DNA of 50,457 bases from a virus: positions 1 to 50,457 of the IMG/VR virus record IMGVR_UViG_3300034072_000174; one strand, written 5' to 3'. Of the stretch, positions 8,287 through 43,379 are shown piece after piece. Position numbers and translations under genes: made by a program. The notes below the pieces were generated by a model. It had not been told where the DNA came from. It saw nothing but the letters and a program-made list of their open reading frames with translations, and did no database searches. Each line of letters opens with the position of its first letter. The first letter of the stretch is position 1.

Positions 8287-9363
8287 ATGTTAGAAGTATT
8301 CAACGTAAATAATAAAGGCTATGTCACAGGTAAATATCCATTATTCTTGGGTGAGAAGTTAGGTTTGTATGATTCTGTGAACGTAGCTTATCCTGACATT
8401 GAAGAACTTTACCAGCAACAGTTTGGTCAACGCTGGAGTGAGTTTGAGTATGACCTCACACAAGACAAAATGGATATGCTCACTCTACCTAAAGAAACTA
8501 CAGACTTGATGGTAGAGACAATCATGTGGCAATATACAGCAGATAGTATTGCAGCTAAGTCGTTGGCTGAACTACTACTACCCTATGTCACAAACAGTGA
8601 GCTTGAAGCTATGGTGACTATCCAAAGTTTCTTTGAGATTATTCACAGTAGAACATACGCTCATATTGTTAAGCAGACAATCCCTAACGCTAAGGATTTG
8701 TTGGAGAAGACCTACGGTAATGTAGAAGTGATTAAACGCTCTAAAGTGATCGGAGAAGCTTTTGGTGCGTTGTACAGATTGAAAGAAGACAGTCCACGTA
8801 AAGAAAAGATTCGCGCATTACTTCGTGTTATGTTTGCTTTGATGGCTTTCGAAGGTGTAAGCTTCATGTCATCGTTTGCTGTGACATTCGCTATTGCTGA
8901 GACAGGTGTGTTTCAAGGTATTGCTGGTTTGGTAGGATTGATATGTTTTGATGAGCTACTTCACGCCAAGATGGACTATACTGTGCTGAAGAATTTGTTG
9001 AAAGACCCTGAATGGTATGCTGAGTTCTTAGCTATTAAACCTGAGATTAACGCAATCATCAACGCCGTAGTTGAGCAGGAATATAAGTGGACAGAACATC
9101 TATTTAGTGAAGGTCGTAGAGTGGTTGGCTTGAGTCCTGTATTACTTCGAGAGTTTGTAATGTATATGGCAACTCCGTTGTATAAGAGCTTTGATCTCGT
9201 AGCGGAACAACCGTTTATTGAGAAGAACCCACTACCGTACATGAACAAGTATTTAAAGTCTGGTGTGATTCAAGTGGCTGCTCAAGAAGTACAGTTAAGT
9301 GATTACAATGTGGGTAACATTGTTGATGATACAGATAATTTAGATTTGAACTTTGAGGTGTAA
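8287..9363 (+). CDS. nrdB: ribonucleotide reductase class Ia, beta subunit
   Basis: The 358-residue protein holds the diiron/tyrosyl radical centre. Metal ligand motifs are visible in order: WQYTADSIAAKS, then SFFEIIHSRTYAHI (Glu and His ligands and the region of the radical Tyr), FEGVSFMSSF, and FDELLHAKM with the last Glu/His pair. The C-terminal tail (DDTDNLDLNFEV) is the acidic peptide expected to dock on the alpha subunit. Start has GGAGG 6 bases upstream. An HNH homing-type gene is lodged immediately after the stop. Confidence 0.95.
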   Translation: MLEVFNVNNKGYVTGKYPLFLGEKLGLYDSVNVAYPDIEELYQQQFGQRWSEFEYDLTQDKMDMLTLPKETTDLMVETIMWQYTADSIAAKSLAELLLPYVTNSELEAMVTIQSFFEIIHSRTYAHIVKQTIPNAKDLLEKTYGNVEVIKRSKVIGEAFGALYRLKEDSPRKEKIRALLRVMFALMAFEGVSFMSSFAVTFAIAETGVFQGIAGLVGLICFDELLHAKMDYTVLKNLLKDPEWYAEFLAIKPEINAIINAVVEQEYKWTEHLFSEGRRVVGLSPVLLREFVMYMATPLYKSFDLVAEQPFIEKNPLPYMNKYLKSGVIQVAAQEVQLSDYNVGNIVDDTDNLDLNFEV

Positions 9364-9364
9364 C

Positions 9365-10015
9365 TTGGGAAAATTAATTGATAGAGTAGGTGAGCGCTTC
9401 GGGAAACTTGTTGTTTTGGAGAAGGACTCGCCTCATGTATCACCGAAAGGTCGCTATACGGTAATGTGGAAGTGTCTTTGTGATTGCGGGAATACATGCA
9501 CGGTAAGTGTAAATAACCTACGTAAAGGTGATACCAAGTCTTGCGGTTGTTTGAATTTGGAAAGATTGACGACACACGGAATGTCTGATACACCGACTTA
9601 TACTGTCTGGGAGTCAATGAAACGAAGGTGTGATGATCCAAATCATCCGAGTTATGTGACGTATTCTAAAATTGGTTATGACCCTGCTTGGAAGCACTTT
9701 GAAAACTTTCTTGAAGATATGGGAATAAGACCAGAAGGTTTATCTCTGGATCGTATAGACAATAACAAAGGGTATAGTAAGAGTAATTGCCGATGGGCTA
9801 CTAAAACAGTGCAGGCGCACAACAAAACGGTGGAACATTCTACAGAGTTTACAGGAGTGCATCACTATAAAGCGAACGGCAAATACCAAGCATACGTAGC
9901 TAAAGATGGTGTTATGTACCACCTAGGTTACTTTGACACAGCAGAGTCTGCTGCTGTTGCTAGGGATGCAAAAGCTTTAGAGTTGTACGGCGCTGAAGCC
10001 TCTTTGAACTTCTGA
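9365..10015 (+). CDS. HNH homing-type endonuclease with AP2 DNA-binding domain
   Basis: Start is taken at the TTG two bases after the nrdB stop, with GAGGTG upstream. The 216-residue product begins with GERFGKLVVLE and a zinc-like cysteine set (CLCDCGN, SCGCL), then has an HNH core (LDRIDNNKGYSKSNCRWA, roughly residues 130-147) and ends in an AP2-type domain (GVHHYKANGKYQAY to the C-terminus). This architecture is typical of free-standing phage homing endonucleases. Its placement at the end of the reductase genes, followed by a strong terminator, fits selfish insertion. Confidence 0.88.
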   Translation: MGKLIDRVGERFGKLVVLEKDSPHVSPKGRYTVMWKCLCDCGNTCTVSVNNLRKGDTKSCGCLNLERLTTHGMSDTPTYTVWESMKRRCDDPNHPSYVTYSKIGYDPAWKHFENFLEDMGIRPEGLSLDRIDNNKGYSKSNCRWATKTVQAHNKTVEHSTEFTGVHHYKANGKYQAYVAKDGVMYHLGYFDTAESAAVARDAKALELYGAEASLNF

Positions 10016-11394: not shown

Positions 11395-11970
11395 ATGAAA
11401 AAGTTGGTTTTTGGTGCTGGAATTAACGATGCTCTATATCACACTCAAGGGGTCGTGAACGGAGTAAAGGTAACTTGCCCGTTTTACGCTAAGTGGTATG
11501 AAATGATCAGGCGTTGTTATTCTGAAAGATACCAAGCCAAACAGCCTAGTTATATTACAGCTTCTGTATGTGACGACTGGCTACTATTTTCCAATTTCAG
11601 GGTTTGGATGGAAACTCAAGACTGGGAAGGTAAACAATTAGACAAGGATTTGCTTGTAGAGGGTAACAGAGTATATTCACCAGAAACCTGTTGTTTTATT
11701 TCTCAAAAACTTAACTGTTTCATAAAAGATACTTACCACAACCTAGAAGGGCGTTACAGAGGAGTCACTTTCCATCAGAGGATATGTAAGTACCATGCTC
11801 AGTGTAGTAACCCCTTCACCGGTAAACGTGGTAGTTGCGGATATTTCGATGATCCTTTTCTGGCACATCTGGCTTGGAAGGAGAGGAAACAACAACATGC
11901 AAGAGAATTAGCAGAGTTAGAAACTGATGAAAGGATTATCCAAGCTCTGCTAACTAAGTTCGATAATTAA
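11395..11970 (+). CDS. HNH/AP2-like homing-type protein inserted antiparallel
   Basis: The 191-residue product matches a common phage pattern: a WYEMIRRCY start, VCDDWLLFSNFRVWM, then LDKDLLVEGNRVYSPETC, which occupies the place of the HNH core. A C-terminal AP2-like stretch (YRGVTFHQRICKYHAQ, GYFDDPFLAHLAWK) follows. The first catalytic His is not obvious (LDKD instead of VDH), so nuclease activity is uncertain. It lies on the opposite strand to all flanking genes, has its own promoter, and ends 4 bases inside the 3' end of the next minus-strand gene. Confidence 0.75.
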   Translation: MKKLVFGAGINDALYHTQGVVNGVKVTCPFYAKWYEMIRRCYSERYQAKQPSYITASVCDDWLLFSNFRVWMETQDWEGKQLDKDLLVEGNRVYSPETCCFISQKLNCFIKDTYHNLEGRYRGVTFHQRICKYHAQCSNPFTGKRGSCGYFDDPFLAHLAWKERKQQHARELAELETDERIIQALLTKFDN

Positions 11971-20170: not shown

Positions 20171-21586
20171 TTACCCTGCAATTACTGTGATGCGACTAAC
20201 ATCAAATACCGCTTCATCTTTTCTACCGATAGTTGTAATACCGCTAGATAATACTGGAGTATCAGTAGGTGCTGATGTTTTACCAGCAGTGACAATCAAA
20301 TTACCGATACCACTTACTTTAGCGTAGATAGCACCCATGATACGCTGAGGGATAACATCTTCATTAAGTCCGAGAGCATCACCATATTCTTTAACTGCAA
20401 GAGCGATTTGTGCTGCACCATCAGCAGGGAATAATTCTTCACTGTATAACTGATACTCTACTCGAACATGAATATATTGATCTACAGGTCGAGAATAGAA
20501 TATAGTTTGTGTTTGATTCTGTGAGTCAGTAATAGCTGTTGAGGTATTACCAAACAACTGAATACCTGCGGGCTTTGTATTCCATACAGTGTTAGCAACA
20601 GCTAAGTCGCTGCCACCTTTAACAGTGCATTCAATACTCTTAGCTGGTAATCCATTAGCGTTTGTGGTATTAGTCCAGTTTTCTTCTACTACTGCGCTTA
20701 CAACACCTTCGGTAGATGTTAGTGCTGCGAAAATAGCGTTGACTGTAGCCTTACCTTGACCACCCACAGAACCATAGAATCTAGTACGCAACTCTGCGTC
20801 GGTCTCTTGCGCCCTACCTGTTACCCATTTTTGATTGTTTGTAACTGTAATAGACGGTAGCGTGGTAACTAAATAATTCAGTGTGTTCGCTTCATAATCT
20901 TCTGTATTAGCAACTAAAGCTTCAGCAGCAACAGAGCCTGTAACATTGAAGATTGAGAGATTGGTAGAAACAGCAATAGAAAAATCTGATTGACTTGTTA
21001 ACTGTAGTCGGTTAGAATTATTACTAACGACAATGTTGGTCAGCGAAGATAACGCTGTTTGAAACAATGTAATAATTTCAGCAGCAGTAGCCGTACCATC
21101 AGATACAACTGAATACACTACACCATTTACAGATAAGGAATATGTAAAGTTATTGGCAACAGTAATGTTGATATTAACATTTTTTACAGCAGAGCTTGTC
21201 AAGGTTAATGCAGATAAAGTTTGAACAACATTGCCTGCTAAATCTTTTACTTGTGTGCCGGAATTGATATTAGCACCTAATGCACCGGTGAATTCTAATG
21301 TTCCGTAAGCCTTCACAGCTTGTAGTCGAGTGAGTCTTGCTCTGCGTACAATACGTTCTAACGCTACGCCAGTTGCCGTATCTGGATCACCAGCACTCCA
21401 TTGCGCTGCTGCCAGTTCATAAAGTTCCGATACTTTCAAGCACCAGATTCTATTTAAAATACCAATGAGTGAGTCATCACTCATATCAAAATTAGGATTA
21501 CCTGTTGCTGTAATGAAATCACTTTGAACATCAGCTATGATGTCTTGATAACGCTTCAGGTCATACCCAGTTGTTGTAATTGACAA
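20171..21586 (-). CDS. baseplate J-like wedge protein
   Basis: The 471-residue protein matches baseplate J/Mu gp47: an N-terminal region with GNPNFDMSDDSLIGILNRI, SAGDPDTATGVALERIVRRA and RLTRLQAVKAYG, a variable beta-rich insert, then GRAQETDAELRTRFYGSVGG and ALTSTEGVVSAVV. It starts at TTG after GAGGAT. It polymerises around the hub as the main wedge component. Confidence 0.93.
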   Translation of the reverse strand: MSITTTGYDLKRYQDIIADVQSDFITATGNPNFDMSDDSLIGILNRIWCLKVSELYELAAAQWSAGDPDTATGVALERIVRRARLTRLQAVKAYGTLEFTGALGANINSGTQVKDLAGNVVQTLSALTLTSSAVKNVNINITVANNFTYSLSVNGVVYSVVSDGTATAAEIITLFQTALSSLTNIVVSNNSNRLQLTSQSDFSIAVSTNLSIFNVTGSVAAEALVANTEDYEANTLNYLVTTLPSITVTNNQKWVTGRAQETDAELRTRFYGSVGGQGKATVNAIFAALTSTEGVVSAVVEENWTNTTNANGLPAKSIECTVKGGSDLAVANTVWNTKPAGIQLFGNTSTAITDSQNQTQTIFYSRPVDQYIHVRVEYQLYSEELFPADGAAQIALAVKEYGDALGLNEDVIPQRIMGAIYAKVSGIGNLIVTAGKTSAPTDTPVLSSGITTIGRKDEAVFDVSRITVIAG

Positions 21587-30604: not shown

Positions 30605-31246
30605 TTAAACCTCGTTAGTGTTTATGTTTATTAAAATAGGATCAGGGTCAATGAAGTGATCATGTAGTTCCCCGTTGAGAATGATTTGTACGATATTACC
30701 TTCAGAATCAATTTCGAGAACATCTCTGAATGTAATGTCAATAACTATTGTGGATAAATCAACCCACTCTGTTTGACGCTGTATCATCCCTCGTTTTACT
30801 TCATTAGAAATCTTGAACAATCTACCTCCTGTGAGGTCAGATACTTTATTTCTGAAGTAAGATGTTGTGAGGGCTTTATGAAGACTTAACGCTATACTGT
30901 GAACATCGTCTGTCTGTCTTCCGACAAAATCTATTACGAACTTGACAATGTAATCAGTCTCGTATAATCTGTTACCATTGTCTGCGTACTTTTCATTGAC
31001 CAGCTCAGCACCACCCCAGAAGGAAGCATTGAGGAAATCAACTAAGCAATAAGGGTAAGGTAAATCAACGGCTGGTTGATTTGTAGATGCTCTATCTGTA
31101 GAACGTTTCTTTATTACTGCTGGAACTAGTTGTCCAACATTAGAAGATGATTTGATTTGAGCTAATCGTGGACCAACAACTTGTTTTACTAAGTTGATGA
31201 TACCATTTTGTTGTGTGTTGATATTAAGACTGTTCGTATAACTCAT
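30605..31246 (-). CDS. tail terminator/neck protein candidate
   Basis: The 213-residue protein has a PYPYCLVDFLNASFWGG segment and IVKFVIDFVGRQTDDVHSIALSLHKAL, the pattern of tail-completion proteins (the LIC-type tail terminator family). It lies between the connector genes and the sheath gene, where the terminator is expected. Confidence 0.65.
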   Translation of the reverse strand: MSYTNSLNINTQQNGIINLVKQVVGPRLAQIKSSSNVGQLVPAVIKKRSTDRASTNQPAVDLPYPYCLVDFLNASFWGGAELVNEKYADNGNRLYETDYIVKFVIDFVGRQTDDVHSIALSLHKALTTSYFRNKVSDLTGGRLFKISNEVKRGMIQRQTEWVDLSTIVIDITFRDVLEIDSEGNIVQIILNGELHDHFIDPDPILININTNEV

Positions 31247-31608
31247 AACTTAGTCTTCCTTACCAACAAGAATTCTCTGTGTCGAATGCGTGGAAGTTGC
31301 ACTGACCAATTACGCTCTTGAATTACTTTGTATCGCCAACCGTCTAGCTCTACTTCATCACCAGTAAAACCAGTCTTTTCGTTATCTGGCTTTAGCTCTG
31401 ATTTAGTGAAGAACACTAATACGTCTTCAATCTTAACACCTTCAGGTAATACTTTAGCTACTTCACCTTTCTGTACGTTAGGGACTGGTTGCCAATTACC
31501 TGTAACACTGAATGATTGTTTCTGTGTCACTACAACGTTACCATTGTCATCAAGAGCTTGTTCGCCATAACGTGTAACTTTAACAGAGCTTGTATTAAGT
31601 AGTCTCAT
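31243..31608 (-). CDS. head-tail connector/neck protein
   Basis: The 121-residue protein starts at an ATG that overlaps the upstream stop as ATGA; a longer TTG form is possible. It is beta-rich, with KVLPEGVKIEDVLVFFTKSEL and VELDGWRYKVIQERNW, similar to stopper/adaptor-type small barrel proteins. Its place in the connector cluster supports that role. Confidence 0.62.
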   Translation of the reverse strand: MRLLNTSSVKVTRYGEQALDDNGNVVVTQKQSFSVTGNWQPVPNVQKGEVAKVLPEGVKIEDVLVFFTKSELKPDNEKTGFTGDEVELDGWRYKVIQERNWSVQLPRIRHREFLLVRKTKL

Positions 31609-32093
31609 AGTGTATGCACCGTCCCTCTCCAACTAACTTTCCAAGCGAAGTTATCAGCTAACTCAGATGTATCAATCAATGGTGTTTCATTAGTAGTTAC
31701 CCAGAGAACATCTGGATTACCGAAGATTTCGTTAGCGGAATGAACAGCCCACATACCGAACTTGTCGGCTAGGTGGTCATTAGTGAAATTAGGATTCTTC
31801 ACATAATCACACAACCAACCTTTTAATAATTTTTTGAAGCTTCCTGCTTCCATTTGACCTACGATTGTGTCTGAGTAGTTATATGATTTCTCAGAACCAA
31901 GTACAGGTCTAACGTACACACCAACACCATGTTCGTGTATACGCATTAATTCTGTGTAATGTAATTTAGCTGAAGTGTGTATTCCTTGTGATTGGAAATA
32001 ACCTACTTCAATCTTCTGTCTGTTCAGTTTCTGGAGTTTTGCTACCAGCTTTGCGAGGTTTCCGTTTCTCTTGAACGTTACTTTGCTCGTCAT
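31605..32093 (-). CDS. head-tail completion protein (gp10/gpG-like)
   Basis: The 162-residue protein has LHYTELMRIHEHGVGVYVRPV near residues 44-64, the hallmark of HK97 gp10/virion morphogenesis proteins (an A-x-I/M-H-E-x-G motif followed by P-R-P). The C-terminal part (NETPLIDTSELADNF) is also typical. GGAG sits five bases before the ATG, inside the overlapping 47-codon gene. Confidence 0.78.
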   Translation of the reverse strand: MTSKVTFKRNGNLAKLVAKLQKLNRQKIEVGYFQSQGIHTSAKLHYTELMRIHEHGVGVYVRPVLGSEKSYNYSDTIVGQMEAGSFKKLLKGWLCDYVKNPNFTNDHLADKFGMWAVHSANEIFGNPDVLWVTTNETPLIDTSELADNFAWKVSWRGTVHTL

Positions 32094-32151
32094 CGGTACT
32101 CCATTCTTTCACTTCACCAGTAGTGTTATCCACCACTTTAATAATAGCCAT
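32008..32151 (-). CDS. small charged protein overlapping the connector gene
   Basis: This 47-codon frame starts at TAATG overlap with the upstream adaptor gene and overlaps the next gene by 86 bases in another frame. The product starts MAIIKVVDNTTGEVKEW and continues with a Lys/Glu/Pro-rich tail. The tight coupling argues that it is translated; function is unknown. Confidence 0.6.
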   Translation of the reverse strand: MAIIKVVDNTTGEVKEWSTDDEQSNVQEKRKPRKAGSKTPETEQTED

Positions 32152-32576
32152 TACTTAATCTCCACCAGACCTCTGCGAGATTGCATAATGTCTGTCCAAT
32201 CTTGTTGGTCATATCCTGTGAATACATCTTGGTCTTCGTATACGCGATTACGCTCACTGAGAGACACGCCACCGATATAAATACCAGCACTGTATCGTGA
32301 GGTATTAGCTTTAACGAAGTCGTCTAGTAATTGCTTGTAGCGCTCATATAGACGTTTGTATTCGATTTCCACTTCACCAACCTTCTCTCTGTCAGCAAGT
32401 GTACTGAAATGTGCCTTGATTGCTTCCATACAAAGAATGGATGCTTTAACTACATCGTTATTGTATTTAACCAAAGCAGAAGAAATTGCATTGTCGGTGA
32501 TATGTTCACCAGAAGGGTCGCCTATGTTAACCCTGACTTGAGCTAACTCACAGTTAAAGTCTAAATCAATTGCCAT
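32151..32576 (-). CDS. head-tail adaptor protein (DUF4054-like)
   Basis: The 141-residue, mostly helical protein has the adaptor plan: an N-terminal VRVNIGDPSGEHITDNAISSAL segment, then helices, then a short C-terminal tail. It is immediately downstream of the capsid gene and its terminator, as expected for the first connector. AGGAAC precedes the start. Confidence 0.75.
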   Translation of the reverse strand: MAIDLDFNCELAQVRVNIGDPSGEHITDNAISSALVKYNNDVVKASILCMEAIKAHFSTLADREKVGEVEIEYKRLYERYKQLLDDFVKANTSRYSAGIYIGGVSLSERNRVYEDQDVFTGYDQQDWTDIMQSRRGLVEIK

Positions 32577-32591
32577 CTAATATTGTTCCTG

Positions 32592-32620
32592 TGAGAAAGA
32601 AGGGAGGGACAAGCCCTCCC
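32592..32620 (-). terminator. intrinsic terminator after major capsid gene
   Basis: GGGAGGG and CCCTCCC form a 7-bp all-GC-rich stem with a CTTGT loop and a TTCTTTCTC tail on the minus strand. It would keep capsid expression above that of the connector genes. Confidence 0.8.
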
Positions 32621-32627
32621 GCCCCAA

Positions 32628-33704
32628 TTAAGACTTGGTAGCCTTGATGATTGTCAATGGAGACAACAGGTAATCACCAAAGTTACTTTCGTACATGATG
32701 TGAGTACCGTTGAATTCATTGTCTGAACGCCATGCGTATTCTGGCAGAGCTACAGTGTTTGTGTACTGCATTGTTTCTGCTGGAGCGAAACGACGAGCGA
32801 ACATACCTTCAACACCTGCTGGCATGATGTATGCTACGTCATCAGCGATCAGTGGAGTACCACCAATCTTGGCATCGTACTGAACGTAAACGATGTCATC
32901 AGCACCAACGTACATACGGTACTGTTTAGAGAAGTTAGCCAGACGTTTCAGCAGTGGATCTTGACCCCACATATCAGTACGGTCTACACGAGCTTGTTCT
33001 TCTTTCGGGTGATGTACACGGTCTTTGAAGAAGTTACGACCACACAGAGCAACATAACCAGAAACGGTTTGACCGTCTAACAGGTTTTCGTTGATTAATG
33101 CACGAGCATCTTCACCAACTTCTGCTGGGTACTTAGTAGCATCAGACAGAACGAAGTTTACTGTTGGACGAGAAGCAGCAGAAGTACCTGCATATTCAGT
33201 GTAGAAGTCATACACTGGAGCTGAGCCGTTAGGGACGTATGAAGTACCAGTGGTGATCAGGTGAGCCAGAGCTTTCTCTTGTAACAGAGCGAATGAGCGG
33301 CGAATGTCACGAATGTCATTTGCTACCAGACGGTCCATTGAGTCCAGAGTGTCTTTAGTGCCGGGCACTCGGCTACGCAGGGCGTCTTGTGGACGAATGT
33401 GTGTTTGAATACCGAATGAAGGGATTTTGAACAAATGAGTTTTTGAACTCTCACGAGCGTCAAAGTTATCACCGCGCTCAGAGTATGATTTATCTGATGG
33501 CAGAGCGACACGCATGATTTTAGAATCATGTTCCCATTTGTCAGTATTCATGTACTCTACGTCCAGAGGAATTAACTCAGTCAGCAGAGAAGGGATGTTA
33601 GGGCTGTTCTCTAACAGGGTGCTAGAAAAGTCATGCAGACTGTTCATGTTACCCAGATCACGAGTTACAGATTTTTGAATTTGGAAACGACCGAATTGAG
33701 CCAT
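32628..33704 (-). CDS. major capsid protein (lambda gpE family)
   Basis: The 358-residue protein matches the phage capsid E family with the HK97 fold: TELIPLDVEYMNTDKWE near the start, IQTHIRPQDALRSRVPG, then the helical spine LVANDIRDIRRSFALLQEK. GYVALCGRNFFKDRVHH and a C-terminal WRSDNEFNGTHIMYESNF follow. The neighbours are decoration protein upstream and connectors downstream. Confidence 0.92.
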   Translation of the reverse strand: MAQFGRFQIQKSVTRDLGNMNSLHDFSSTLLENSPNIPSLLTELIPLDVEYMNTDKWEHDSKIMRVALPSDKSYSERGDNFDARESSKTHLFKIPSFGIQTHIRPQDALRSRVPGTKDTLDSMDRLVANDIRDIRRSFALLQEKALAHLITTGTSYVPNGSAPVYDFYTEYAGTSAASRPTVNFVLSDATKYPAEVGEDARALINENLLDGQTVSGYVALCGRNFFKDRVHHPKEEQARVDRTDMWGQDPLLKRLANFSKQYRMYVGADDIVYVQYDAKIGGTPLIADDVAYIMPAGVEGMFARRFAPAETMQYTNTVALPEYAWRSDNEFNGTHIMYESNFGDYLLSPLTIIKATKS

Positions 33705-33732
33705 TATTTAGAATCCTTATTGAGAAATAATA

Positions 33733-33750
33733 ACGGCTATTAAACGCCGT
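33733..33750 (-). terminator. weak terminator-like hairpin after decoration gene
   Basis: ACGGC and GCCGT pair across an 8-base loop that contains the decoration gene stop codon, followed by TATTATTTCTC on the minus strand. The 5-bp stem is short, so the effect may be partial. Confidence 0.4.
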
Positions 33751-34234
33751 AGTAAGTAGAAGTAACAGCGCCCAGAACGTTCTTAACAGCGATGTCTTGT
33801 TTTTCGAGTTGTTTGATAACAGAAGCTTTCTTAGCATCGTTCAAACCAGCATCCCACAGTAAGCCAGATTTCTTAACAGAAGCGGCACCACGGAATAACA
33901 GAACTACTTTGTCACCAGCAGTGGTAACAGATACGTCACCTTTAACATCACCCAGAGCATCGAAGCCTACAACAACACCAAATTTAGCGCCGTTAGCTAC
34001 AGAGCCATCGTTAGCTGGAACGTTAACTGCATCAGCAGTAAAGTCACCGGCAACTGGTTGACGATAAGCGACCAGAGTGTTGTCCCAAATAACTACTTGA
34101 CCAACACGATAAGTTTTGGTAGAAGCTTCATCAACAGATACGCCATGTTGGTAGTTGATGTTTTCTACGATTGGAAAGCTGTCCTGCATCAGAACATCTG
34201 ACAGAACTGGGCTAGAAGTTGCAATAACAGTCAT
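33740..34234 (-). CDS. head decoration protein
   Basis: The 164-residue beta-rich Val/Ala/Gly protein has YRVGQVVIWDNTLVAYR and KFGVVVGFDALGDVKGD segments, typical of lambda gpD-type decoration or stabilisation proteins. It lies between the scaffold and the major capsid gene, in the classical order. AAAGGAT precedes the start. Confidence 0.75.
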   Translation of the reverse strand: MTVIATSSPVLSDVLMQDSFPIVENINYQHGVSVDEASTKTYRVGQVVIWDNTLVAYRQPVAGDFTADAVNVPANDGSVANGAKFGVVVGFDALGDVKGDVSVTTAGDKVVLLFRGAASVKKSGLLWDAGLNDAKKASVIKQLEKQDIAVKNVLGAVTSTYYGV

Positions 34235-34253
34235 TATTGTTTATCCTTTATAA

Positions 34254-35198
34254 TTAGTAAGGTTTGTTTAATTCTGCTGCGAATGCAGCTTTCTTAATTT
34301 GTTCTGGGTCAACTTGTACGTCTTCACCAGTGGTGGTTTCTTGGAACAGGTCAGATTTTTCTACCAGTTCTTTTTTAGCTTGCAGAGATTTAATCACTAC
34401 GTCAGCAGCTTCTGGGCTAGTAGCTTTCATTACGAATAATGATTTAGCAACAGCAGTCAGTTCTTCAGCAGATACTAAGTCTTTCAGAGATGCTTCGAAT
34501 GCTGCGAATTCAACAGCTTCTTGTTCTTCTTTAGCTTTCTGTACTTGTGTACGAAGTTCAGCAACTTCCACTTCCAGAGCAGATTTCTCAACTTTGAGTT
34601 GAGTAGCTTCTGCTACGGCAGCTTCGTGAGCTTGCTCGACTTTTTCTAATTGCTCGTAGCGAGCTTTTTCTACTTGGATTTTCAAGGGGTCTTCCTCGTT
34701 TTGTTGTTGTAAAGATTTCTCGATTTGAGACTGGATAGTAGTGATAGCAATAAAGTCTTCATCACTAATTGTTTGGTTCGGGTTCTCGCTGAGAGACTTC
34801 ATAAGGGTGAACTGAGAGATACGTTCTTCTAACCACTTACTGTGTGACCAGACTTCCATACCGTCTTGCATCTTGGCTGCTTCTTCACGCTGGTACGCTT
34901 CATACTCGGTTTCATAACCAAGTAATTTTGTCAGCATTTCAGCATCTTCATACCACATGCCGAACCACTTACGTAAGAATTCTTCCATTGACATTGTTAC
35001 AGTAATCTGTTCTAATGCTTTCTGTACTTTCACTACGTCAGTTGGTTGGATACCGGAGTTAGTAGATTTTGTTACTAATACAGAATATCCGCAGGCACTT
35101 CCGCCTTGGTCTTTAGATACCAGAGCTACATGAGCGCCATTAGTATCAAAGTCGAAATTGAAAAGCTTACGCTTTGCTTTTTGTTTGCTAATTGTCAT
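34254..35198 (-). CDS. capsid scaffolding protein
   Basis: The 314-residue protein has a compact N-terminal part (GGSACGYSVLVTKS) and a long helical coiled coil at about residues 145-230, rich in Glu, Lys, Gln and Ala. The C-terminus (PEQIKKAAFAAELNKPY) is typical of scaffolds that bind the capsid. It overlaps the protease gene by ATGA, and the two act together in prohead assembly. Confidence 0.78.
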   Translation of the reverse strand: MTISKQKAKRKLFNFDFDTNGAHVALVSKDQGGSACGYSVLVTKSTNSGIQPTDVVKVQKALEQITVTMSMEEFLRKWFGMWYEDAEMLTKLLGYETEYEAYQREEAAKMQDGMEVWSHSKWLEERISQFTLMKSLSENPNQTISDEDFIAITTIQSQIEKSLQQQNEEDPLKIQVEKARYEQLEKVEQAHEAAVAEATQLKVEKSALEVEVAELRTQVQKAKEEQEAVEFAAFEASLKDLVSAEELTAVAKSLFVMKATSPEAADVVIKSLQAKKELVEKSDLFQETTTGEDVQVDPEQIKKAAFAAELNKPY

Positions 35199-35719
35199 TT
35201 AATATCCTGCCCGTAAGCTTCACAATAAACGCTCAAGCCTGTGAACGTACCATCCTTCACTTTAGGCCAAATTACATCTTCAGCTAATTCATCTGGTTCA
35301 GGGAAGTACCACTCTTGCAACCAAGTGTTCTTGCGAATAGTCACTTGCTCACCTTCTGGATTCTCGATAACGAATTCAACAGGAGAAGTGTAAGATTGCT
35401 CAATCACAGCTAAATCAGAATCGAGCATTACGCTGTGCATCAGATTAGCCTTCATGCAATGCACGTTAAACGACCTACATGCTTCGATAACGTCTTGGTC
35501 TGAGTAAGTATCACCGTGTAAGTCTTCAGTCTCCGTAGTGTCTTGTGGGGCTAATACAACCATCAATGCTCTACGTTCTTCTACATCTACAGACTTACGT
35601 AATTGGACACCTTCCGGTGTAGTGACATCACTCTCAATAACTTGCTTATGGTTTTCACTATCACCGATAGCCATGTCCAACAAGTCAAGGAACATCTTCT
35701 TTAATTTTTCTTTGTTCAT
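35195..35719 (-). CDS. prohead serine protease (XkdF-like)
   Basis: The 174-residue protein matches the XkdF/S78-type protease plan: LHGDTYSDQDVIEACRSFNV, then HCMKANLMHSVML and AVIEQSYTSPVEFVI, ending VKDGTFTGLSVYCE. His in LMHS and Ser in QSYTSP or GLSV are candidate catalytic residues. It lies between portal and scaffold as usual. The ATG overlaps the portal stop; the binding site is weak, so translation is probably coupled. Confidence 0.8.
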   Translation of the reverse strand: MNKEKLKKMFLDLLDMAIGDSENHKQVIESDVTTPEGVQLRKSVDVEERRALMVVLAPQDTTETEDLHGDTYSDQDVIEACRSFNVHCMKANLMHSVMLDSDLAVIEQSYTSPVEFVIENPEGEQVTIRKNTWLQEWYFPEPDELAEDVIWPKVKDGTFTGLSVYCEAYGQDIK

Positions 35720-37496
35720 CTACGCTTTGTTATCCATGTTAAGACTGCTATTATTACCGGATGCTGAGCCAGTCCCTGAAGGGAGACCACTTGTCATGCC
35801 GTCACCGCTACGAGTAGTCATGTCACTAAGCTTCTCGATGATCTCGTCTTCAGTAAGTTTCTCAACCTCTGTAGTATCGTAACCACACTTACGCCATAGT
35901 TGGACAAGCATTGCTTTGTCTCGTGGGAATAAGCCTGTAGCACCTAATCGTTGACCAGCTTTAGACGCTTCTTCAGCATCAGCTTCATCCAGCTCACCGA
36001 ACGTCATCACTGGCATATCATCTTCTTCAAGCTTCAGCTCATTAATGTCTGCAAGAGACTTAACAAACTCACGCTCAAATACTGTTTTGATATACATCAG
36101 CATACGTTCCATGTAGAAAGCATGGACACTGCGACTACTATCTGATAGGCTATGTGAACCTGTGTCACCCTGACCAACCAGAAGGAAGGAAGCGCCTAGT
36201 ACATTAAGAATATCTTTCTTACGAGCTTCAATCAGTTCAGATGTTTTATAGGCTTTACTACCACCATCGACACCCTTCAGTTCAACATCGTAAACGTATT
36301 TACCGTTACCTGTTTCACCGTGTGTGTCTGAACCTAAGAGGATATATGTTTGATCGCCAGCATGAATAGCGGCAGCATTCTTTTGTAATGCTCGGAGGGT
36401 TTGTGCTTCTAAACTATCAGCATCTTCAGCAGCTTTGTTGATGTGGTCATTCGGGACACGTAATACAAGGACACCCATTTGTTCAAAGTGATTCGTTAAT
36501 TCACTCCAGCGACATTATTCGCTTCTCTATGTTTCCATAAAGTTCAGACTATATCTTCATCCTTATAGGATGCTTTCCATTTCGAGCTACTTAGCCCTAC
36601 GCCTCTCGGCTAGTCGTTACACGTTCTCATTACTGAGCTTCGCTCGGTATTGTCTCCAACATTACTTGGTAAGAGTTTCACCGAATTAGAAAAGTTATTC
36701 AATGTGTATTGCTACACAAGGGGGCAGTTCTACCCAAGTCCTTGCTCACCCCAACAACCTCATAGCTTGTAATCATTTCAAGCTCTTTCCAAGATTTAAA
36801 GCAGTCGTATAGATCTGATTTACCTTGAGGATTGTTGCCTGTACTATTCCAACTAAACAACATAAACTTTTCTCTACGAACAAATTTATCTGTTAAGTTT
36901 TGTACAGTGAAAGGGTTGATATTACTTTGTCCAATAACTGTAGCTGGCATCCATTGATGTAAACCAACCAAATCTCGCTTCAATACAGCATCATCAAACA
37001 CCCACTCACGAACACTCTTTTGAGCGCGAGGAGCAAGCTTTGCATATTTATATTTGTATTTACCAGACCACTTAATACTATCATTCTTTGCAAACACTTT
37101 CTCAAGCCAAGCAAATCCGTATTTACGGAATGTGATAATATTTGTGATAGCGTCATACCAACTATTACCAACGAAGTTCTTGATGTTCCAATTAAGGAAG
37201 GCAGCGAAGTCTTTCGATTGTTCGCTTCCAGATACACCAGCAATGAACTTAGTGGCTAGGAGGGATTTAGTAAGGAATACTTCCCCAGCAGTTAAGCCTT
37301 GGCTAACGGCAGAGGTAGAAGCCATCTTATCGTATGTGGCTAAGCTATGAGGAAACTGTAATTCTTTCTTAGCAGATTCTTCAATGTAGCCGCCGATGGC
37401 CTTTAGATATGGATTGCCGATCTCCCCTAAGCGAAGACGACTGTCTGAGCTAGAGGGATTAGATTCAGCTTTCTCAATTTGAATTGTTTCTGACAT
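35720..37496 (-). CDS. portal protein, gene split by a group I intron
   Basis: Exon 1 is 36732-37496 and exon 2 is 35720-36493. Joining them gives 513 codons (512 residues) with the junction SKDLG/NHFEQMGVLVLRV. The product resembles the DUF935/Mu gp29 portal class: a helical N-terminus, DAITNIITFRKYGFAWLEKVF, FVRREKFMLFSWNSTGNNPQG, KSWKELEMITSYEV, and a long C-terminal helical region. The gene adjoins terL upstream and the protease downstream. Without splicing exon 1 stops after eight intron codons. Confidence 0.85.
36494..36731 (-). ncRNA. group I intron in the portal gene (238 bases, ORF-less)
   Basis: The intron starts after a T (exon end CTTGGGT pairs with GCCC downstream to form P1 with a G-U pair) and ends in G. 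The core has TCTAATTCGGTGAAA, AATACCGAGC, and the P7 halves GACTA (in GTAACGACTAGCC) and TAGTC (in AAGATATAGTC), hallmarks of phage IA introns. No ORF is inside. It shares core words with the first terL intron. Confidence 0.92.
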
Positions 37497-37508
37497 TATC
37501 CCCTCAGA

Positions 37509-39555
37509 TTATGAATTAAGGTCATATTGCGCTTTGATTGTGGGATCGTTGAGAGCGGTTAGTTTTGGGACTGTGTAGGTTTTGATTGTATTCAATGCGT
37601 TAAATGCTGACGCCACACAGTCAGGTATGTCATCCTTGTACGTTTTTGTGCTGCGCTCTCCTGAAAACTTCTCAAGAGATAGCAAATAAAACTCTAATGT
37701 AGCTGCGTCAAAGGTACTGGATACAATTTTAACTAATCCATTTTCCGCAGCCGAGGCAAACGGCGCAAACTTTGTCATCTTGGATTTGTTACTTGGCATA
37801 GGGTCTGCTTTAACAACATAACCTTTACCTATTAACTTCTTAGATGATTCAATGAATTCGTATTTACCGGAAGCTGATGGATCTTTTGGAAAGATGATAG
37901 TCATATCTGAGCCATCTTGTTTAGCCTGAAGCTCTATAAGATTGTCTCGCTCACCTACAGTCTTTCTAACTACTCCAAGGACTTTGCTATCTGGATCTTT
38001 GAAACTGGGATGGAAGTCACCGAAAATATAGTAGTAACCTTCTTTGTCTTTAGCCATACCTACTTGTGATGTGTAATCAGGACTCGGTTCTTTATCAGAA
38101 GGGGCAGTACCAGCTTTATCGTAAGCTCTGACGCACTTAGCACCTAGAGGGATCTTATCTGCCACCGCACACCACTTTCTGTCGAAGTACAAGCTATTAG
38201 ATGGACGAACTTTCCAGTTACCATCTAATAATCTCGCTCTGTCAATGGGGTTCAAACCTTCAAGCCAAGCAAGATAATCACTATTTTGCTCCAACATTCG
38301 GGGGTTGTCCCTGATTGTGCTACCAATAAAGCTGAAGCTAATTGGTTTCACATTATCACCGTATGTGGCTTTTAATTCTTCTGGTGTATCACCCCAAAGA
38401 TATTGCCCACCTTGTAAAATGAACCAGCGTATTACACCAGCTCTTTCTTCGATAGGGAAACCGTCTTCATCTAACCACCAAGAAATCATCTCTGCTATCT
38501 TGTGGTCTGGATCGGGATTGCAACTTATGACCATTCGTGAAGGATACTTACTCTCAGAGCGCATTCGTGACATCAAATATTCTATTTGAGACCAGTCAAA
38601 TTGCGTTCCTTCGTCAAAAGCTATGAACGTATCGTTTTGTTAAGTATACTTCGCTAAAGTATACCCTGCCTTGGCAGCTATATGTTTCCATATAGACCCG
38701 ACTATATCTTCACCGTTAACTAAATAATACGGTGTCCCCCATTTCCACCCGCTTGGGTGTACGGCTTTCGCCTAGTCTGTGAACCTTCTTACTTTCGTAA
38801 GCTTGGCTGCTGATTGTCCAATCTCAAACATTGTTACACGTAGTAGTTTAAGCTCTAAGGAGTTTCCAGCAATTAAAGGGATTATTCACTGTAATATTAC
38901 TACTACAGGCAGCGTAATTGTCACTGTAAACCTTGGTGATTGTACTTGTCTTTCTCTGTCTCCATGTGAGACCATTTCATTTTAAAACCAGTAGGAAACT
39001 TAGCTTCTAATGAATGCTCTGACATACGAGGACGGAGTTCTGTGGGTAGCTGCATGTACATATTACGTGCAGTATCGAATACACCACCAAGACCTTTGAT
39101 TTGAACTGTTGTTCTGCGGAATACAATTGCATTTGCTTTTGGGTCATCTACATAAAGCAAAGGGAGCATTTGTAATAGGAAACTTTTGCCGGAACCGGCT
39201 GCCAAATATTATGTAGTCGCTACGCTACTCTGCCTTTTCAAGCAGGATCGGGTCATATCTTCATCCCAGAGGGAGTCTACCGTTTCGGATAATCAATCGC
39301 TTATTACCCTACGCCCTGACTAGGGCTGACCTCCACACACGCCATTACGCTTGGCTCGGTATTAGCATAGAGCTTAGCCCCTTAGCTTTCACCGAATTAG
39401 ATAGATTCTTAGATACACATTACTGTGTTCTGTGGCGCAAGTTCACCACCCATGATTAAAATTTGAGCCTTACAGTCAACAATCATTTGTTGTTTTTTAG
39501 ATGTAGGTCCAAAAGGTAATCTTATCTCGCGGGGTTGTTTTTGTTTAGTTGTCAT
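37509..39555 (-). CDS. terminase large subunit, gene split by two group I introns
   Basis: Exons are 39445-39555, 38923-39202 and 37509-38632; joined they give 505 codons (504 residues) in frame. The product packages DNA. The Walker A motif GGAAGSGKS is created across intron 1. HQGLQYDTFIAFDE, with Walker B, is created across intron 2. The C-terminal nuclease has RAYDKAGT and a late Asp in IPDCVASAFNAL. GAGGAG precedes the ATG. It is followed by the portal gene 12 bases later. Confidence 0.95.
38633..38922 (-). ncRNA. group I intron 2 of terL (290 bases, ORF-less)
   Basis: Exon 2 ends CAGT and pairs with GCTG of the intron to form P1; the intron ends in G, giving HQGLQ-Y-DTFIAFDE. The P7 halves are GACTA (CACAGACTAGGCG) and TAGTC (AAGATATAGTC). 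The core (TTTAATTGCTGGAAA, CAATCAGCAGCCAAGC) differs from the other two introns, so it is a separate acquisition. A GTATACTT/AAGTATAC hairpin lies near its 3' end. Confidence 0.92.
39203..39444 (-). ncRNA. group I intron 1 of terL (242 bases, ORF-less)
   Basis: The exon end GTGGT pairs with GCCAC of the intron as P1 (five pairs with terminal G-U), and the intron ends in G before GCAGCCGG. The core words TCTAATTCGGTGAAA and AATACCGAGC match the portal intron. P7 is GGTCA with TGACC (in AAGATATGACC), a compensatory change from the GACTA/TAGTC of the other two introns, which supports the fold. Confidence 0.92.
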
Positions 39556-40761: not shown

Positions 40762-41134
40762 TTAATTAAACCTTAATAATTATCACCCTACTCTTAGCCG
40801 TTGGCGTAAGAAAGAGATGTGTTTCTTAGACTAATGTAAGATGATAATTATTAAAATCTTACATCTCGAATTGCGAACAATTATTTTTCAACGATTTCTC
40901 GTTACGGACACGCCAATACCCGTTTAAAACAATATTTGAACAAACAGCCCCTAACGGGGCTGCTCATCCTCCCAGACATTCCAAATCGCAATGCTTGGAT
41001 ACGTGTAGGGGTGGAACATAAATGTTCTGTAAACTTTATTAATTCGCTAACGGGGTTAATATCCAACCAGCTTCACGCTGTTCCGCGCTCTATAACTCCA
41101 GCAAACCACATCCCATGTGAGGATGCTGAATTCT
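40762..41134. other. 373-base non-coding region
   Basis: No convincing gene is present. The region holds a terminator for the gene to the right (40940-40962), an inverted repeat TGTAAGAT/ATCTTACA near 40836-40864, and CGCTCTATAAC at 41086-41096, a motif shared with the intergenic region at 14927-14937 (opposite orientation). The part next to the GIY-YIG gene shows no clear promoter. Confidence 0.5.
40940..40962 (-). terminator. intrinsic terminator
   Basis: On the minus strand CAGCCCC and GGGGCTG form a 7-bp stem with loop GTTA and a TTTGTT tail. It follows the 142-residue gene and isolates it from the GIY-YIG gene. Confidence 0.75.
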
Positions 41135-41563
41135 TTATTTCTTAGCTTTAGTGGCAGCCTTCTTTACAACCGGCTTAGCTTCTACTGCTGTTTCAACAAC
41201 CACTTCCGTAGCCTGTTCTACTTCAATTGTAGCTGCTTCCGCTACATCTGTCAAATCTTTTTCAATAACAGACATCATAAATACATACTTTCTATCGAAG
41301 ATGAATGTCACTCGAAGCAACGTACCTACAATACTACGAATATCATCTTCTGTCAAATCTTTTGCATTGTTTACAACGTAGTCAATCACTTCGTGTAACT
41401 GAGCAAATCGAATAGTATTACCACCAACACTGTAATCGGTGCTAACATTGGTAAACATTTTTCCATTAATTTCTTTCCAGAAATCAGCATATGTTCCATT
41501 CTTCACTGCTTCATAAATTGCTGGCAAGAAGCTACTCACGCCATGATAAGTTAAATTCTTCAT
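41135..41563 (-). CDS. hypothetical protein with Ala/Lys-rich tail
   Basis: I place the start at the ATG after AGGAAATACA, giving 142 residues. The frame is open further upstream through the leader hairpin, but that part has no binding site. Residues 1-95 are a compact domain (TYHGVSSFLPAIYEAVKNG, LHEVIDYVVNNAKDLTEDD). The last 40 residues are low complexity with Ala, Val and Lys (KPVVKKAATKAKK), like histone-type DNA-binding tails. Function is unknown. Confidence 0.72.
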   Translation of the reverse strand: MKNLTYHGVSSFLPAIYEAVKNGTYADFWKEINGKMFTNVSTDYSVGGNTIRFAQLHEVIDYVVNNAKDLTEDDIRSIVGTLLRVTFIFDRKYVFMMSVIEKDLTDVAEAATIEVEQATEVVVETAVEAKPVVKKAATKAKK

Positions 41564-41601
41564 TGTATTTCCTGTATAAATTACATTCTCTAAAATAAAA
41601 G

Positions 41602-41654
41602 CCCCGTTACGACGAGGAGAGGTGTGCAGAGGAGGATGCACCATCGTAACGGGG
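41602..41654 (-). promoter_or_regulatory. structured leader hairpin, attenuator candidate
   Basis: CCCCGTTACGA and TCGTAACGGGG form an 11-bp perfect stem. Inside it GGTG-T-GCA can pair with TGCACC. On the minus strand the outer stem is followed by CTTTTATTTT, giving a terminator-like end 40 bases before the gene at 41563. An upstream segment (41728-41737) is complementary to the loop for ten bases (41618-41627). Confidence 0.6.
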
Positions 41655-43216: not shown

Positions 43217-43291
43217 TGGCGCACCATAATTGATTCGAACAATTTCTACAAATTTAGAAGAATTGTGTGCTATCCATTACACTAATGGTGC
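43217..43291 (-). tRNA. tRNA-Arg (TCT)
   Basis: A full cloverleaf is visible on the minus strand: acceptor GCACCAT/ATGGTGC, D-loop with AATGGATA, anticodon loop CTTCTAA (anticodon TCT), T-arm AATTG-TTCGAAT-CAATT, discriminator G and an encoded CCA. One mismatch (T-T) lies in the anticodon stem. It would read AGA codons. Confidence 0.93.
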
Positions 43292-43302
43292 TTAAATAAC
43301 TC

Positions 43303-43379
43303 TGGTAGCCCCAGTAGGACTTGCATCTAACTACCTACCGATTATGAGTCGGTTGCTCATCTATATGAGCTTTGAGGCC
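43303..43379 (-). tRNA. tRNA with CAT anticodon (Met, or Ile if lysidine-modified)
   Basis: Acceptor GGCCTCA pairs with TGGGGCT (two G-U pairs), the D-arm is GCTC/GAGC, the anticodon arm ACCGA-CTCATAA-TCGGT is perfect, and A73-CCA is encoded. The T-arm is atypical: the loop lacks TTC and only three or four pairs form (TAG/CTA). Whether it is elongator Met or Ile cannot be decided here. Confidence 0.82.

Follow-up and report, generated by a model that had tools for sequence, protein, structure and literature searches.

A candidate homing-assisted terminase cassette with three predicted group I introns in a phage genome

Collaborative homing, in which a free-standing endonuclease mobilizes a nearby intron, is said to have been described by Bonocora and Shub and by Zeng et al., both in 2009, for T3/T7-like phages and for the psbA systems of cyanophages. 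We analyzed a 50,457-base stretch that constitutes a single virus record (IMG/VR IMGVR_UViG_3300034072_000174; hereafter, the window), in which a free-standing endonuclease-type gene likewise lies near an intron, here in the large terminase gene terL. Apart from the difference in the genes concerned, cleavage at the intron site was demonstrated in the T3/T7-like and psbA systems according to PMC10448857, whereas in the window the endonuclease gene and the intron are a pair predicted from sequence. In vibriophage ICP1, splicing of terL was demonstrated by RNA sequencing (RNA-seq) and reverse transcription PCR (RT-PCR), and collaborative homing was proposed, with endonuclease turnover as an alternative (Barth, Dunham and Seed 2023, PMC10448857). 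The window, all of whose intron, terL and portal features lie on the minus strand, repeats the ICP1 order of a T5orf172 endonuclease gene (tcgB in ICP1), a short terL exon 1, an intron without an open reading frame (ORF) in the P-loop codons, and terL exon 2, and the ICP1 intron and the corresponding window intron, I1, fall within one supported clade. The two loci differ in that the ICP1 intron is inserted one codon further on (GGA/AGGGKS; slashes mark insertion points and splice junctions) and in that our core covariance model found one intron at the ICP1 locus; replacement of terL between near-identical genomes is not described in the excerpts of PMC10448857.

The window's terL gene carries two predicted ORF-less group I introns (I1 and I2) and its portal gene a third (I3; Table 1). 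The introns are ordinary in kind, and what is distinctive is their setting: a clade of P-loop introns, often accompanied by an upstream endonuclease gene, within a terminase block that is exchanged in one piece. The first-pass annotation of this DNA overlooked both this endonuclease gene ahead of terL and the exchange of the entire terL block. On balance we lean toward reading the locus as a homing-assisted terminase cassette, in which homing would take place and would be a cause of the exchange.

Other described systems share parts of this arrangement. In the homing endonuclease gene (HEG) islands of PMC10448857, essential phage genes are likewise thought to be mobile together with neighboring homing endonuclease genes, but there like islands with endonuclease genes at both ends occur in unlike genomes, whereas here unlike terL blocks, with one endonuclease gene and an intron seen, occur in alike genomes. 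The Certrevirus CB7 intron, which is shared with PhiTE and was found to splice by RT-PCR, also interrupts terL but carries its own HNH gene (PMC7344957). The TerL inteins of mycobacteriophages also splice themselves, and they occupy the P-loop and Walker B motifs, with two of the P-loop sites one residue apart, but they act by protein rather than RNA splicing and hold the endonuclease within the element (PMC5050341). Intein-like P-loop inserts in TerL were also noticed by eye among the loci that we surveyed (denoted by L numbers), in L031 (1913-3883, Vibrio phage PWH3a-P1, GGSAG/C...), in L027 (3347-5422, Escherichia phage phAPEC8, GGAAG/C...) and, in similar form, in L110. Among Rheinheimera Barba phages, 112 records match I1 (75.2% identity over 84% of I1 among the matches listed), and the P-loop intron of Barba21A (NC_048191.1) occupies a position identical to that of I1. 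Short terL introns are easily overlooked in annotation, as one of these records illustrates: terL of Barba21A (L003, 3938-4343) is annotated as two hypothetical proteins and a truncated terminase because its P-loop intron is unannotated. Literature searches on Barba phage introns and on TerL inteins at Walker A found no paper, and no prior description of a P-loop register clade or of reciprocal terL replacement was found in the literature surveyed, which comprised excerpts of some papers and listings of the others.

Predicted group I introns in terL and the portal gene

Two of the three introns match the Rfam group I model RF00028 above its gathering score (I2, 38678-38926, 96.7 bits; I3, 36525-36745, 82.9 bits). 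The covariance-model search that had been suggested as a check on the first-pass annotation thus recovers I2 and I3, and falls short for I1, which reaches 39.5 bits (E 1e-8) against a gathering score of 50. We attribute the low score of I1 to its compensated P7 helix, which pairs GGUCA with UGACC where I2 and I3 pair GACUA with UAGUC. With a covariance model built here I1 scores 111 bits, although it is itself among the ten building sequences. In the core alignment of these ten introns, the named helices (P3 to P8, including the P7 pseudoknot) are paired in 95.1% of 306 cells, compared with 72.3% in shuffled controls and 36-41% in slid versions, and 23 of the 31 core pairs have changes on both sides, with at least one such pair in each of the seven named helices. 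Introns of subgroup IA are marked by extra P7.1 and P7.2 helices and by AAGATAT beside P7; as had been noted at first reading, AAGATAT precedes the second P7 strand in I1, I2 and I3.

All three introns also have U at the end of the 5' exon and G at the 3' end of the intron. P1 pairs GUGGU with GCCAC in I1, and I2 and I3 each have a P1 of 4 base pairs, judged by eye. Excision leaves open frames for a TerL of 504 amino acids (aa) and a portal protein of 506 aa, with predicted spliced joins ATGGGTGGT/GCAGCCGG for I1, TTACAGT/ATACGTTC for I2 and GACTTGGGT/GGTGTCC for I3, and reading-frame inspection found no long ORF inside any of them. The Rfam matches of I2 and I3, the compensated core of I1, the open spliced frames and the lack of long ORFs bear out the initial claim of three group I introns that encode no nuclease of their own, and strongly suggest that each is a small ribozyme that would remove itself from the mRNA and restore terL and portal.

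Comparison with relatives agrees with the boundaries first given for I1 and I2 and with the start of I3 at 36731, but not with an I3 end at 36494. The intron-less portal genes of L005 and L009 have the empty site GACTTGGGT/GGTGTCC, relative to which the window has 18 extra nucleotides (nt) before GGTGTCC; I3 therefore ends at 36476. The rejected end, with the join ...GGGT/AATCACTTT, keeps the frame by chance (18 nt), yet it would leave six extra residues without counterpart in the intron-less L004, L005 and L009. The corrected end also accounts for the 18 mismatched nt that follow portal exon 1 in the comparison with L005 and L009, for which co-conversion had been considered as a source. The 3' end of I3, TTGAACAAATG/, resembles those of the introns that L005, L040 and L041 have at their Walker B codons (TTGAACACTTCG/, TTGAACATAATTG/ and TTGAACAAAAATG/, respectively), and a P10 pairing seen by eye, of the 3' exon GGU with ACU directly ahead of the internal guide, fits the corrected position. 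The empty site of I2 reads CAGT/ATACATTC in L005 and CAAT/ATACATTC in L009.

Table 1 Features of the terL-portal region of the window and the evidence for each
Feature	Position	Strand	Basis
Free-standing endonuclease-type gene, 383 aa	39610..40761	-	Treble-clef-like repeats and C-terminal GIY-YIG-like (MUG113/T5orf172) domain; Pfam
terL exon 1, 37 codons, ends in P-loop ...IMGG/	39445..39555	-	Spliced frame, P-loop codons
I1 (predicted), 242 nt, ORF-less, in Walker A (P-loop) codons GG/AAGSGKS	39203..39444	-	Rfam 39.5 bits, structure, same site in Barba21A, P-loop clade
terL exon 2	38923..39202	-	Spliced frame
I2 (predicted), 290 nt, ORF-less, six codons ahead of Walker B Asp (HQGLQ/YTFIAFDE)	38633..38922	-	Rfam 96.7 bits, empty sites in L005 and L009
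terL exon 3	37509..38632	-	Spliced frame
Portal exon 1	36732..37496	-	Spliced frame
I3 (predicted), 256 nt, ORF-less, portal site KDLG/GVLVLR	36476..36731	-	Rfam 82.9 bits, empty sites in L005 and L009, common 3' motif
Portal exon 2 (spliced portal 506 aa)	35720..36475	-	Spliced frame
Upstream edge of replaced terL block, 37-nt stretch	41099..41135	-	Identical in window, L004, L005, L006, L008, L010 and L012; L009 without it
Downstream edge of replaced block, last 21 terL codons and stop	37509..37574	-	21 residues kept across terL types

Across 100 sources, the core covariance model matched 54 times at E ≤ 0.05, counting the ten sequences from which it was made, and a core tree was built from 43 cores (42 different rows) that matched at E ≤ 1e-5 in 32 chosen sources. 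I1, I2 and I3 belong to three different supported sets in this tree. A single set (support 98/93) holds 14 of the 19 rows labelled P-loop, I1 among them, the other five (L024, L073, L094, L095 and L106) being placed elsewhere; I2 falls in a set of 13 rows (98/96) and I3 in a set of seven (100/97). Intron sites 2 and 3 are variable among close relatives. The window, L006, L007, L008, L010 and L011 carry the portal intron, whereas L004, L005 and L009 do not. L005 and L009 are also without I2, but a different intron interrupts their terL 20 nt further downstream, between the Walker B Asp and Glu codons (D/EG), a site that terL introns occupy in L040 and L041 as well. The proposal that more than one acquisition was needed therefore stands, and three acquisitions are the simpler reading, given the three supported sets and the independent absence of I2 and I3.

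The load of three introns, by contrast, is not unusual as had been supposed, since other terL genes surveyed hold as many or more. In L064 (4250-6000), terL lies in at least four pieces, with three model-supported introns and a fourth interruption, of the P-loop, recognized by eye; L040, L072 and L082 have two model introns each, and published Bacillus phage terL genes have two or three (PMC11878797). Weaker core-model matches (41-51 bits) occur elsewhere in the contigs of relatives, at 1158-1369 and 20861-20966 of G001:C1 and at 11410-11621 and 84476-84577 of G002:C1.

P-loop intron registers and the upstream endonuclease gene

The 14 introns of the P-loop clade are 210-262 nt long and enter the motif GGAAGSGKS in five registers: after residue 2 in the window, L005, L009, Barba, L040, L004, L076 and L097; after residue 3 in ICP1, L023 and L047; and after residues 4, 5 and 6 in L072, L006 and L082, respectively. 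For L006 we took the register of the second-ranked of two splice solutions, since no other yields a standard P-loop. Register may differ between very similar introns: the cores of L004 and L072 are ~0.04 changes per site apart, yet their registers differ, and GGCGGT is matched by the guides of both L004, at the first glycine pair, and L082, at the second.

The endonuclease-type gene of the window ends with a stop codon 54 nt ahead of the terL start. Its 383-aa product matches Pfam MUG113 (E 4.9e-6) and, below the Pfam cut-off, T5orf172 (E 0.0065), DUF723 and DUF4379. It is 25% identical to ICP1 tcgB over 325 aa (pairwise E 3e-19), indicating that the two genes are homologous, and a scan of viral contigs with this protein yielded the same three relatives. 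A free-standing endonuclease-type gene thus adjoins an ORF-less intron, which in sequence is the arrangement of a collaborative homing pair. Other endonuclease-like ORFs were noticed by eye in the window at 9353-10015, 939-1478 and 11395-11970 (one of them directly after an nrdB-like gene), with no Pfam match at E 0.01.

Endonuclease-type genes tend to accompany P-loop introns across the surveyed loci. Of the 16 loci with a P-loop intron, 11 have such a gene no more than 700 nt upstream of terL, compared with 7 of the 53 whose P-loop is intact (Fisher p 4e-5), and the association persists after dereplication at 80% (11/15 vs 6/39, p 1e-4); these figures supersede a first test (11/15 vs 8/56). 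The genes belong to several classes: GIY-YIG-like, HNH_3, NUMOD4-HNH and AP2. The count omits contig-redundant loci, loci with less than about 900 nt of upstream sequence, and L027 and L110, which were rejected as intact-P-loop controls for their intein-like inserts, as was L064 for its interrupted P-loop. The Pfam scan was limited to upstream ORFs of at least 180 codons within 700 nt, and covered 12 intron loci out of 16 and 25 out of the other 53 (a 26th scanned locus, L110, was later removed); loci that have no such ORF, and L062 and L108, which are near-copies of scanned loci, were counted as having no endonuclease gene. Any endonuclease-associated domain at E ≤ 0.01 was accepted, even below the Pfam cut-off (L047, HNH_3, E 0.0016; L058, AP2, E 0.009). 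The upstream ORF of L094, endonuclease-like by eye with no Pfam match, was counted as none, and the GIY-YIG profile was built from five of the loci that it later matched.

Exchange of the terL block and its possible causes

Close relatives of the window differ from it in terL as a block. The window matches L006, L008 and L010 at 92-95% identity over most of 30722-37585, cannot be aligned with them up to 41098, and matches again at 84-100% from 41099; L004 shares the upstream edge and has its downstream edge at 37623 (unaligned from 37624). Outside the block, these four relatives are 84-95% identical to the window. The unaligned block contains the endonuclease gene, the P-loop intron and almost all of terL. 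One endonuclease-type gene stands upstream of terL, and portal directly follows it. The C-terminal part of TerL is 39% identical between the window and L006, 38% between the window and L004, and 37% between L006 and L004, whereas portal exon 1 is 95-100% identical across the same relatives.

Quick trees group the window-type TerL with Barba (support 83), near Vequintavirinae-type terminases (90), and the L004/L007-type TerL with L072, L067, L082 and, more weakly (87), Alteromonas phage PT11-V22, as the portal is likewise grouped. A single TerL clade for all six phages is rejected (log-likelihood difference 268, approximately unbiased test p 1.7e-77, quick tree), as are a grouping of the window and L004 types (difference 231, p 6e-6) and a window-Barba portal clade (difference 231, p 1e-32). 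Alignments, identities and trees thus agree that the history of the block differs from that of the genome, a trait of HEG islands. Because terL is a common phage marker gene, and its history here differs from that of the adjoining portal in closely related genomes, the finding has a bearing on phage taxonomy.

Both edges of the block are conserved. The last 21 TerL residues, TVPKLTALNDPTIKAQYDLNS, are identical in 9 of the 10 loci tested, across all terL types, the remaining one (L011, whose contig starts within terL) having one change, and at the upstream edge 7 of 8 loci share an identical 37-nt stretch. This stretch, which follows the stop of the gene at 41135-41644 and holds a CATCC...GGATG hairpin, is constant across alleles while that gene varies by about 8-14%; it might be a terminator, a packaging site or a recombination site. 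A second case comes from another phage group: L073 and L089 also have different terL genes, yet 17 of their last 23 residues agree. In other phages a C-terminal arm of the large terminase is believed to touch the portal (PMC5727402), which gives a plausible reason for retention of the tail. The comparison shows replacement of terminases between phage lineages with the resident C-terminal tail kept, and the cause would, on the reading that we favor, involve homing.

We propose a homing unit of two parts, I1 and the free-standing GIY-YIG-type endonuclease. This enzyme would most likely cut P-loop DNA that has no intron in co-infecting phages, and repair templated by this genome would copy the endonuclease gene, the intron and flanking terL jointly, as in collaborative homing. 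Because the two parts of such a unit enclose the 5' part of an essential gene, repair and recombination in flanking homology could carry the whole of terL along. I2 and I3 are polymorphic introns separate from the I1 unit. More broadly, and tentatively, since we hold it somewhat short of probable, a clade of ORF-less group I introns may be specialized on the 27-bp P-loop of phage terminases, shifting among adjacent glycine codons and sustained by pairing with any free-standing upstream endonuclease gene; the pair would render terL mobile, so that phages repeatedly swap the packaging motor minus its C-terminal portal-contact tail. These loci form a natural data set on whether homing elements drive the exchange of an essential gene, beyond their own spread.

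Several observations weigh against the cassette reading. Block replacement is general in these genomes: G001 (the 94.3-kb contig of L005) and G002 (the 93.4-kb contig of L008) align over only 43.2 kb of G001, leaving 41 unaligned stretches of at least 150 nt, one of which, 3,527 nt long, is the terL block. That terL is the sole replaced block is thus false genome-wide, and for this reason the link between homing and terL replacement is one that we infer. The association of endonuclease genes with P-loop introns partly reflects shared ancestry, since independent pairs on the TerL tree are too few, with 3.9 running the same way against 1.0 the opposite way (median p 0.375, in an earlier set of 71 loci). 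Exceptions occur in both directions: unlike the window, Barba21A (NC_048191.1) has a P-loop intron with no endonuclease gene beside terL, L095, L106 and L064 have no candidate upstream ORF, and the ORF of L094 has no Pfam match; conversely, seven loci (L019, L030, L053, L055, L058, L066 and L089) have an endonuclease-type gene despite an intact P-loop. Finally, under strict homing an intron would stay at one insertion position; five registers therefore call for a further process, for example reverse splicing or misaligned repair within the glycine codons.

A credible, if less probable, account is passive hitch-hiking, in which terL was swapped by ordinary homologous recombination during co-infection, perhaps selected by satellites or DNA-end specificity, with the introns and endonuclease gene as selfish riders inside the exchanged block. 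The genome-wide mosaicism between window-type and L008-type relatives is consistent with this account, as are the identical flanks at both block edges, which offer plain homology for crossover, and the kept C-terminal tail, which is expected from selection for portal fit. Against it, all three terL types with the 5' region covered (window, L006 and L004) have an upstream endonuclease gene and a P-loop intron, and the association of intron and endonuclease persists across distant phages.

It is unlikely that the upstream endonuclease is instead a packaging helper acting with TerL in DNA-end processing, its proximity to the intron being incidental. The HK97 HNH nuclease, encoded directly upstream of the terminase, does join it in cos cleavage (PMC10448857), and of the 69 loci counted, 18 have an endonuclease-type gene ahead of terL; but the class of the gene varies by locus (GIY-YIG-like, HNH, NUMOD4, AP2 and LAGLIDADG), and none was detected in 46 of the 53 loci with an intact P-loop.

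We consider it still more improbable that the introns regulate packaging-gene expression through RNA folding, guanosine triphosphate (GTP) level or stress, as in the first-pass suggestion of a coupling to RNA folding or host physiology, for which we found nothing in support. Phage introns have been proposed generally as molecular on-switches (PMC11878797), and two of the introns here split or adjoin catalytic motifs of the motor. A position in conserved motifs is, however, equally expected from homing, TerL inteins being biased alike (PMC5050341), and the absence of I2 and I3 from close relatives argues against a conserved role for those two. Least plausible of all is that the introns are degenerate or an assembly artefact that leaves the genes broken and unspliced: I1 does lie below the Rfam cut-off and splicing in the window is a prediction, but compensatory pairs occur in all seven named helices, the spliced frames are open, and the same intron sites recur in other contigs and in a Barba phage.

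Elsewhere in the window, Rfam identified two transfer RNA genes on the minus strand at 43220-43379.

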